Source: an uncultured Pelagibacteraceae bacterium
GTDB taxonomy: Bacteria > Pseudomonadota > Alphaproteobacteria > Pelagibacterales > Pelagibacteraceae
DNA length: 45,746 bases
Assembly: GCA_902570785.1 (NCBI GenBank)
Contig: CACFZK010000009.1
Coordinates: forward strand, 1 to 45,746
Direction: 5' to 3'
The notes beneath the pieces were generated by a model that was not told where the DNA came from, made no database searches, and worked only from the letters and a program-made list of their open reading frames with translations. Shown one piece after another: positions 2,547 to 20,837 of the stretch (position 1 is the first letter of the stretch; the number at the start of each line of letters is the position of its first letter). Both the position numbers and the translations under genes were made by a program.

Positions 2547-4724
<2,178 letters not shown>

Positions 4725-4751: not shown

Positions 4752-4772
4752 ACTTTATAATTATTCTAAAGT
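4752..4772 (-). promoter_or_regulatory. Candidate Irr box (iron control element) in the katG promoter
   Basis: Near-palindrome of 21 bases. Read on the minus strand it is ACTTTAGAAT, a central A, then ATTATAAAGT; only one base pair of the arms mismatches. The core TTTAGAA-N3-TTATAAA resembles the iron control element bound by alphaproteobacterial Irr, as I remember it (TTTAGAA-N3-TTCTAAA type). It lies between the -35 and -10 elements of the katG promoter and about 30 bases from the end of irr. Binding is inferred, not shown. Confidence 0.5.
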
Positions 4773-4781
4773 ATGTGTCAA
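4754..4781 (-). promoter_or_regulatory. katG promoter (sigma-70 type)
   Basis: On the minus strand a perfect -35 TTGACA (4776-4781) is followed after 16 bases by TATAAA (4754-4759). This puts the start of transcription near 4747, about 23 bases before the katG ATG. It is one of the best sigma-70 matches in the window, and the spacer is filled by the Irr-box-like palindrome. Confidence 0.6.
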
Positions 4782-4804: not shown

Positions 4805-5227
4805 TTAATTATTATTTTCTAATCTTATTACAACTTCAACGTTTTTGATTTTCTTGCCTTTTGGGGCCTCTGGAAGTTTTTGAAAGGTAATTTTGTCGCT
4901 CTTAATATCAATCACCTTTCCATTATCGAAGAAGTGATGATGAGAAGTTACATTTGTATCATAATATGATGTATTGTTTTCTAATGAGAATTCCTTCAAA
5001 TACCCTGCGCTTTTTAGTGCATGTACGGTGTTGTAAAAAGTTGCTGTAGAAATTTTTTTTGACCTTTTTAAATTCATAGAGTTTTTTAATTGTTCAACTG
5101 TGAAATGAAATGTTTTTTTTCTATTAAAGAGAAATTTGCTTATTTCTACTCTTTGATTTGTGGGTCTCAGGCCAGAAGATCTGAGTTTGTCTATAAAAAT
5201 CTTGTTTTTACTATTCATTTTTTGCAT
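4805..5227 (-). CDS. irr: Irr, Fur-family iron/heme response regulator
   Basis: Fur-superfamily repressor/activator of 140 residues. In alphaproteobacteria Irr senses heme or iron and controls heme synthesis and iron genes. The winged-helix part contains GLRPTNQRVEISKFLF and the recognition region ISTATFYNTVHALKSAGYLKE. The HHHFF motif is the Irr/Fur metal- or heme-contact region, and the end (LPEAPKGKKIKNVEVVIRL) is Irr-like rather than Fur-like. The position divergent from fabA-fabB-fabI is a conserved alphaproteobacterial arrangement as I recall. An alternative ATG lies at 5218. The neighbouring katG promoter carries a possible target site. Confidence 0.85.
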   Translation of the reverse strand: MQKMNSKNKIFIDKLRSSGLRPTNQRVEISKFLFNRKKTFHFTVEQLKNSMNLKRSKKISTATFYNTVHALKSAGYLKEFSLENNTSYYDTNVTSHHHFFDNGKVIDIKSDKITFQKLPEAPKGKKIKNVEVVIRLENNN

Positions 5228-5298: not shown

Positions 5299-5805
5299 AT
5301 GAAACAAAAAAACAGTTATAACTATAATGAATTAATCGATTGTGCTAACGGTGACTTGTTTGGTGAAGGTAATGCACGTTTACCATCACCACCAATGTTA
5401 ATGTTTGATAGAATTACACAAATTAAATTAGATGAAGGAAAATTTAAAAAAGGGACTATTAAAGCTGAGTTAGATATAAAGGATAATATGTGGTTTTTTG
5501 ATTGTCATTTTAAAGCTGATCCTGTTATGCCAGGATGTCTGGGATTGGATGCAATGTGGCAGTTAGTTGGATTTTTCTTAGGCTGGATTGGAGAGCCAGG
5601 TAAAGGACGTGCTTTGGGTGTAAATTCTGTTAGATTTACAGGTGAGGTTATAAAAAAAGTTAAAATGGCAACTTATGAAGTAGATATGAAAAAAGTTTTA
5701 AAAACGGAAGGTGGAACTGTTGGTTTTGCAGATGGGATTTTGAAAGCTGATGGCAAACAAATATATACTGCAGAAAATTTGAAAGTAGGAGTTTATAAAC
5801 AATGA
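5299..5805 (+). CDS. fabA: FabA, 3-hydroxydecanoyl-ACP dehydratase/isomerase
   Basis: Dehydrates 3-hydroxydecanoyl-ACP and isomerises trans-2- to cis-3-decenoyl-ACP, the branch point to unsaturated fatty acids. From the ATG at 5299 the protein has 168 residues and the catalytic residues fall at H70 (WFFDCHFKADPVMPG) and D84 (LGLDAMWQ). These numbers match E. coli FabA exactly, which decides this start over an upstream TTG at 5284. The stop overlaps the fabB start (ATGA), and fabA-fabB-fabI form a tight operon. Confidence 0.96.
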   Translation: MKQKNSYNYNELIDCANGDLFGEGNARLPSPPMLMFDRITQIKLDEGKFKKGTIKAELDIKDNMWFFDCHFKADPVMPGCLGLDAMWQLVGFFLGWIGEPGKGRALGVNSVRFTGEVIKKVKMATYEVDMKKVLKTEGGTVGFADGILKADGKQIYTAENLKVGVYKQ

Positions 5806-20408: not shown

Positions 20409-20837
20409 TTAATTTTTTTTAATTTTAGATCCGTAGAGTTCAAGTTTATGGTCTACAAGTTTATAACCTAACTTTTGGGCAATTTTATTTTGTAGTACCT
20501 CAACTTCTTTATCAACAAACTCTACTATCTCACCAGAGTTTATATCAATAAGGTGATTATGGTGTTCTTCAGTCGTTGGCTCATATCTTGACTTACCTTC
20601 TTTGAAGTCATGTCTAATTAAAATGCCAGATTCCTCGAATAGCTTAATTGTTCTATAAACTGTAGCTATGCTAATTTTTTTATCAATTAATGAAGCTCTT
20701 TTATGAAGCTCATCAACATCAGGATGATCTTTTGATCCAAAGGTTTGTTTCGAGTCTGATATGACCTTAGCAATAATTTTTCGCTGATCAGTTAACCTAA
20801 CTCCCTTTTCTTTACATTTTTCTTCAATTTTACTCAT
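20409..20837 (-). CDS. fur: Fur/Mur-family metalloregulator
   Basis: Second Fur-superfamily regulator of the window, 142 residues. The DNA-binding part contains GVRLTDQRKIIAKVI and KKISIATVYRTIKLFEESG, and the metal-sensing HHNHLIDINSGEIVEFVD is close to Fur. The C-terminal zinc cysteines of E. coli Fur are missing, as in alphaproteobacterial Mur/Fur proteins that respond mainly to manganese. Whether it senses iron or manganese cannot be read from the sequence. It lies directly upstream of miaB, a conserved alphaproteobacterial position. Tracks with Irr, encoded 15 kb away, as the window's pair of metal regulators. Confidence 0.9.
   Translation of the reverse strand: MSKIEEKCKEKGVRLTDQRKIIAKVISDSKQTFGSKDHPDVDELHKRASLIDKKISIATVYRTIKLFEESGILIRHDFKEGKSRYEPTTEEHHNHLIDINSGEIVEFVDKEVEVLQNKIAQKLGYKLVDHKLELYGSKIKKN

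Follow-up and report, generated by a model that had tools for sequence, protein, structure and literature searches.

What is the near-palindrome that separates irr, the gene of a Fur-family regulator, from katG, the gene of a catalase-peroxidase, in an uncultured SAR11 (Pelagibacteraceae) bacterium, and could the neighbouring Irr act on it? The window, that is, the whole stretch of DNA that was analysed (45,746 nucleotides), comes from an assembly of 965,521 bases that is 86% complete, and the features that matter for the question are the following:

4781-4752, minus strand: irr–katG promoter stretch, TTGACACATACTTTAGAATAATTATAAAGT, as read from the sequence.
4776..4781, minus strand: -35 hexamer TTGACA, a consensus match, with a 16-base spacer to TATAAA.
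4752..4772, minus strand: 21-base near-palindrome, ACTTTAGAATAATTATAAAGT, in which 9 of 10 pairs match (pairing counted on the sequence).
4754..4770, minus strand: Irr-type box TTTAGAA-TAA-TTATAAA, TTTAGAATAATTATAAA, a putative operator that overlaps the -10 hexamer (exact in 54/54 irr-katG loci).
4754..4759, minus strand: predicted -10 hexamer TATAAA, a consensus match, within the right half of the box.
4805..5227, minus strand: irr, Fur-family regulator of 140 amino acids, cysteine-free, with HHH as residues 96-98 (open reading frame and family models).
2547..4724, minus strand: katG, catalase-peroxidase of 725 amino acids, starting 80 bases after irr (open reading frame and family models).
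5299..5805, plus strand: fabA, divergent from irr and followed by fabB and fabI, all conserved neighbours (family models).
20409..20837, minus strand: fur paralogue, the contrast protein, with R and E in place of the N and D of Irr (residue comparison).

The katG product scored 1028.6 and 1018.2 bits, above both model cut-offs. The gene directly upstream of katG had been read as irr in the first-pass annotation. IrrA was the best NCBIfam model of its product, although the score of 137.8 bits lies below the curated cut-off of 150, and it was followed by Irr (123.6 bits, cut-off 170) and PerRB (65.1 bits). A gene adjoining fabA is typical of irr in rhizobia, and irr adjoins fabA in the window as well as in the SAR11 loci. 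The near-palindrome upstream of katG was also real, with its 21 bases and the core TTTAGAA-TAA-TTATAAA on the minus strand. It had been described as filling the spacer between TTGACA and TATAAA; it does come after a perfect TTGACA, but its right half is the -10 hexamer itself, so that the box lies in the katG promoter over both the -10 hexamer and the spacer. The consensus of the Irr box, or iron control element (ICE), is the inverted repeat TTTAGAA-N3-TTCTAAA, a form that was also seen independently in irr loci of the sister family f2 and of other families, and the box of the window differs from it by one mismatch.

From its position and conservation, we consider it likely that the palindrome serves the neighbouring Irr as an operator through which katG is repressed, and that the operator type of an old switch formed by Irr and rubrerythrin (rbr) now serves katG in many SAR11. 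The site is very probably regulatory, and Irr would be by far its likeliest binder. An Irr dimer on the box would cover the -35 and -10 hexamers and deny RNA polymerase access to the katG promoter, and katG would be expressed once Irr loses its activity. The inactivating signal is the weakest step of the scheme; it may be heme or iron, as the first-pass annotation has it, peroxide acting on Irr, or a combination of the two. The old switch would consist of irr followed by the box and the rubrerythrin gene, as in many Alphaproteobacteria, and in many SAR11 katG would have taken the place of rbr under the same type of box, now lying over the -10 hexamer. In other organisms, Irr is described as repressing genes that carry its box at the start of the transcript (PMC3413700), and as binding the ICE without heme and being inactivated with heme, radical-mediated degradation having been suggested (PMC7762939).

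The letters of the box were examined for chance occurrence. The exact sequence TTTAGAANNNTTMTAAA appeared in 0 of 5000 dinucleotide shuffles of a 106-base stretch round the irr-katG gap. Composition alone predicts about 0.5 exact sites genome-wide, and the genome holds one further exact site (G000:C1:109996), inside an open frame read as topA-like; the letters alone are therefore weak evidence, and the weight of the case rests on the position of the box and on its conservation. Genome-wide scans gave the same picture, with 67 palindromic places at up to two mismatches against 130 for the reversed control, and a scan with three mismatches that was swamped (1091 and 1042 matches). When the central YNR seen in relatives was included, the only full match in this genome was the katG site, together with two one-mismatch places, both within open frames, whereas the reversed control matched more often (5 and 3 versus 3 and 1). 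Among the 297 family genomes, 243 contained the exact box at least once, and the reversed control was about equally frequent. Motif counting across genomes as a way of defining a regulon was rejected, because the reversed control was as frequent or commoner. The first-pass annotation had counted a lack of similar sites upstream of other iron and heme genes against its own proposal, and no second box before such a gene was found by motif scanning of the assembly as a whole, which is 86% complete. This lack of further promoter sites leaves the katG site unrefuted, and suggests that Irr in this genome is a local, perhaps single-target regulator.

Conservation was assessed in irr loci of related genomes. 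The exact box was kept in all 54 irr-katG loci that were found via the Irr protein rather than via the box; katG lay behind irr in every one of them, Irr identity went down to 50% and the bases flanking the box differed. For 94 irr loci, from which the window and 15 irr loci fetched for their box were left out, the arrangement was scored as a site that has no more than three mismatches to the palindrome and keeps a set distance from TTGAC. It was present before katG in 68 of 68 loci, before rbr in 21 of 22 and in one of the four loci with neither gene, while only 1 of 5500 shuffled gaps satisfied the same rule. The exception was L228, in which irr and rbr are present and the box is absent. Conservation of the palindrome in relatives with the same gene order, to which the first-pass annotation had tied its proposal, was thus borne out. 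By the stricter rule of exact letters, a second set (L174-L193) had the box in 11 of 13 katG loci, the others carrying one and two mismatches, and in two of seven rbr loci (three with one mismatch and two with two). A TTGACA, TTGACT or TTGACC was located 15-17 bases before TATAAA in all 70 loci with an exact forward box before katG, six of which had been fetched for their box.

Behind irr, katG was found in 77 and rbr in 29 of the 110 irr loci surveyed, 106 loci together. In the window's own family, rubrerythrin occupied the place behind irr where katG was absent (24 loci seen), mostly followed by a CCG-domain protein and DUF3501; the rubrerythrin product has 137 amino acids and a Pfam E-value of 1.9e-30. 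None of the 24 genomes with an rbr locus was among the 210 of 297 that had a katG match. When 26 genomes were tested for rbr, it was found in 7/7 with an rbr locus and in 0/19 with katG, and none was found in the window's own 86% complete assembly. In a tree of 101 loci based on FabABI, with 18 of the loci in or beside the box-fetched group, the downstream gene changed at least 11 times, or at least 16 times when KatG is divided into three groups, counts that whole-locus recombination can inflate since the tree is a quick one built from linked genes. The best reading is that in many SAR11 katG stands in the place of rbr behind irr, under a putative operator of the same type.

The distribution of the two arrangements in other groups was also compared. 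With one genome per family across the class, Irr was detected at E <=1e-20 in 32 of 58 genomes, the window's own included. Outside the order, rbr was present within the 1.5-kb flanks in 21 of 29 irr loci, of which 20 had it within 700 bases behind irr, and fabA lay within 1.5 kb of irr in eight of the 29. The palindrome had no mismatch in three of those 20 irr-rbr gaps, one in three, two in six and more in eight; thus 12/20 had two mismatches at most, against 0.2% of shuffles, and TTGAC stood closely behind the best palindrome site in 17 of the 20. None of the 29 loci showed katG behind irr, so that, judging from this distribution, the rubrerythrin arrangement is probably older than the katG one. 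Among the ten loci of the sister family f2, rbr was found in five (with the box in four of them), katG behind irr in one (L226, box with two mismatches), and no co-oriented gene behind irr in three, all of which were without the box. The perfect form TTTAGAA-N3-TTCTAAA behind irr was detected in L230, L234, L247, L269 and L270; in L234 (positions 3030-3322, genome G342 of f2) it reads TTTAGAA-TTA-TTCTAAA and precedes a 61-amino-acid frame without a Pfam match. The first-pass annotation had seen in the site a link between heme supply and a heme enzyme. This part did not carry over to the relatives, in which the same type of site stands before the non-heme rubrerythrin, and most loci therefore have peroxide defence in common, not the supply of heme to a heme enzyme.

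A variant that overlaps the repressor reading is that Irr mainly senses peroxide and takes the role of PerR or OxyR; oxidation of the metal or heme site would then free the katG or rbr promoter, and iron would be secondary. We regard this as a real possibility and hold it tentatively; the presence of one or the other peroxide-defence gene behind irr in 106/110 loci would agree with it. Residues H41, N66, D90, H96, H98 and D107 were kept in 90/90 SAR11 Irr proteins in the alignment, H96 and H98 forming the HxH heme motif. In a phmmer alignment to B. subtilis PerR these residues match its metal ligands and its DNA-preference Asn, the PerR numbering being taken in part from PMC8638851. The two PerR hallmarks described in PMC8638851, an Asn in helix H4 and an Asp at the ligand that decides on H2O2, correspond to N66 and D107 in all 90 proteins, whereas R and E occupy these two places in the Fur of the window. 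The same residues were nevertheless found in 29/29 Irr proteins of other families (D90 in 28), which makes them a family trait and no proof of peroxide sensing; they allow it, but PerR identity was rejected as a conclusion from the hallmark residues. Described Irr proteins sense heme (PMC7762939). In Dinoroseobacter, the Irr protein falls under oxidative stress (PMC8007024). As for other peroxide sensors, the only LysR protein found is cysteine-free, OxyR was not among its best 25 models, and no OxyR was found in the assembly, which at 86% completeness could miss one.

Published expression data bear on the signal as well. In iron-limited Pelagibacter, rbr (SAR11_0399) was up 1.57-fold (P 0.025), and irr is reported to have responded less to iron than to stationary phase (Smith et al. 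2010, PMC2864753). The rise of rbr speaks against simple repression at low iron; it would fit a peroxide sensor, and would be reconciled with repression by a peroxide input or by indirect stress. Peroxide defence in SAR11 may, as a tentative proposal, be a self-contained switch with nearly one target, in which Irr, as sensor of both heme and peroxide, would replace OxyR and PerR beside one exchangeable enzyme; this enzyme would have been swapped repeatedly (rbr and several katG lineages), with the operator arrangement kept or rebuilt, and decaying after the loss of irr.

The sign of the control was considered from the position of the box, since Irr is described as acting either way depending on where its site lies (PMC7762939). 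In the survey of 110 irr loci, including the 15 fetched for their box, two positions were recognized: a U box that ends 3-4 bases before TTGAC, and a D box whose first base lies 10-12 bases past the start of TTGAC and which extends over the -10 hexamer. U boxes were present in 32 loci, D boxes in 88 and both in 14, the paired boxes being 30-32 bases apart, which suggests that two Irr dimers could sit on one promoter. Irr might thus activate katG from the box instead of repressing it, and the increase of rbr in iron limitation would be compatible with this. We consider activation unlikely, as a site over the -10 hexamer and spacer is in a repressor position, and 69 of the 77 katG loci have only that box. 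Some loci carried a box before irr itself: in genera g2, g3, g10 and g14 there were 27 such loci with one mismatch at most, all in the direction of irr (for example L142 and L244, the latter with rbr behind irr and two boxes), suggesting that irr may control itself there. This box has no counterpart in the window, where the best site upstream of irr has three mismatches, nor in L021-L074 (best sites with at least two mismatches) or the g1 loci examined.

A further explanation holds that the conserved letters are only those of the katG promoter (-35, spacer and -10) in an AT-rich genome, with no regulator bound, and we rate it as improbable, slightly more so than activation. The right half of the box is indeed the -10 hexamer, shuffled gaps often yield sites with three or four mismatches, and the motif is without genome-wide enrichment. 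The two locations of the box differed at its position 13, which was C in 32/32 U boxes and A in 88/88 D boxes, so that the half reads TTCTAAA in 32/32 boxes adjoining the -35 and TTATAAA in 88/88 over the -10. The reason would be that the D box also serves as the -10 hexamer, and the simplest explanation of the A in the box of the window would be that it is the cost of this double role. Of the two halves, the one towards the -35 is better conserved; TTTAGAA does not correspond to a promoter hexamer, but its G was kept in 87/88 boxes over the -10, and the palindrome also occurs upstream of the -35, free of any -10 constraint.

Genomes that keep katG and lack irr, which serve as natural knock-outs, also weighed against a promoter-only origin. 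By the -35 rule, within 200 bases, the arrangement was present in 0/21 irr-less katG loci. Together with the Irr-box type, its place in the katG promoter and its conservation with gene order, this favours the direct control of katG by Irr that the first-pass annotation had proposed. The exact box was found in 0/10 fabA-katG loci without irr and in 65/67 with irr (Fisher 6e-11, uncorrected for kinship); these ten loci had been chosen for the missing Irr, not for the box, and their best sites had 1, 1, 2, 2, 2, 3, 3, 4, 4 and 4 mismatches. Ten more Irr-less genomes of the SAR11 family (L157-L166; genera g5, g9 and g12, and one g4), with no fabA seen near katG, had no site with two mismatches or fewer in the 260 bases before katG. 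Although most genomes are incomplete, so that a missing irr could partly be a gap elsewhere, the fabA-katG loci themselves are unbroken, and in L172 (G130, reverse strand 3651-3960) a relic of irr remains between fabA and katG, consisting of the first ~20 codons followed by a stop and a deletion. One of the 21 irr-less loci, L151, which was fetched for its box, retains the exact box without a -35 at that distance; the statement that the bare box is lost in every irr-less locus was accordingly rejected, and the loss is claimed for the box at its -35 distance.

Kinship was taken into account with independent pairs on the FabABI tree, where the presence of irr changes at least nine times. With all 101 loci, a mean of 6.3 pairs were with the association, 0.2 against and 1.5 tied (median p 0.031, range 0.016-0.219). 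For katG loci alone, means of 5.8 with, 0 against and 2.2 ties were obtained (median p 0.031), and without the box-fetched loci there were seven pairs, mostly six with, none against and one tie (means 5.8, 0 and 1.2; median p 0.031, range 0.031-0.063). The test is thus weaker once rbr loci are included. The box occurs with Irr and is lost without it, L151 and L228 being the exceptions.

Eight of the ten irr-less fabA-katG genomes still show a weak Fur-family match, that of G001 scoring like the window's Fur, and lack the box, so that the box follows Irr rather than Fur. Binding by the other Fur-family protein, whose gene (20409-20837) lies in the same window, was rejected as very improbable because the arrangement is missing in these genomes, even though Fur-family boxes resemble one another. 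The window's Fur also has R, not N, at the place where the choice of box between B. subtilis Fur and PerR is set (PMC8638851).

The putative Irr operator before katG resembles several known systems. It shares with the Irr-ICE switches of R. sphaeroides (mbfA, ccpA) and Bradyrhizobium (bfr, blr7895) an Irr-family protein, a promoter palindrome of the TTTAGAA-N3-TTCTAAA type and targets in iron handling and peroxide defence; it differs in that the target katG lies directly behind irr, the box with TTATAAA lies over the -10, and the scans of this genome gave only one strong promoter site. The two Irr-box genes of R. sphaeroides have a role in oxidative defence, whereas its catalase gene katE is described as not bound by Irr (PMC3413700). 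The irr-rbr locus, which also contains an HdrD-like (CCG) gene and, in the loci that showed it, DUF3501, has its enzyme gene in the same place behind irr, the same type of box, and fabA, fabB and fabI as flanks in SAR11 (fabA within 1.5 kb in some other families), but its enzyme is a rubrerythrin of di-iron type and, outside the window's own family, the box lies just upstream of the -35. In mycobacterial FurA-KatG, katG is likewise controlled by a Fur-family gene immediately ahead of it; the binding site of FurA, however, is upstream of furA, with which katG is co-expressed (PMC2630230), whereas in SAR11 the regulator is Irr and the box is located in the irr-katG gap. The PerR switches of B. 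subtilis and Leptospira share the Fur family, the metal-site and hallmark residues and the peroxide-defence targets. In contrast to them, the window's Irr is cysteine-free and so has no CxxC zinc site, a site also described as missing in two Leptospira PerR (PMC8638851), and its best family model is Irr.

No report of an Irr site before katG in SAR11 was found in the titles and abstract openings searched, and katG under an Irr-type operator, in place of the older rbr switch, would, as far as this literature shows, be a novel form of an otherwise known type of control. SAR11 bacteria are among the commonest cells in the sea. The katG gene is described as common to most offshore SAR11 genera (PMC12636525), and the conserved putative operator makes the signal that decides on their catalase production directly testable. 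The exchange of the enzyme behind a kept operator, together with the irr-less relatives, would offer a clean case of a gene joining an existing type of regulatory site.

Other observations were made in the course of the comparisons. The distance between irr and the Fur paralogue, which share a strand, is 15 kb, and in several relatives, such as G003, G017 and G058, the two matches are likewise 15-17 kb apart. In G014, an exact box (L149, 4307-4323) was located in the region 4280-4418 between a 1-Cys peroxiredoxin gene and a divergent gene of 413 amino acids, read by eye as an oxidoreductase; it is possible that this box marks a second peroxide-defence target. The same genome carries a perfect TTTAGAA-CAA-TTCTAAA (L148, 4403-4419), some 80 bases ahead of a gene that by eye resembles one for a uracil permease.
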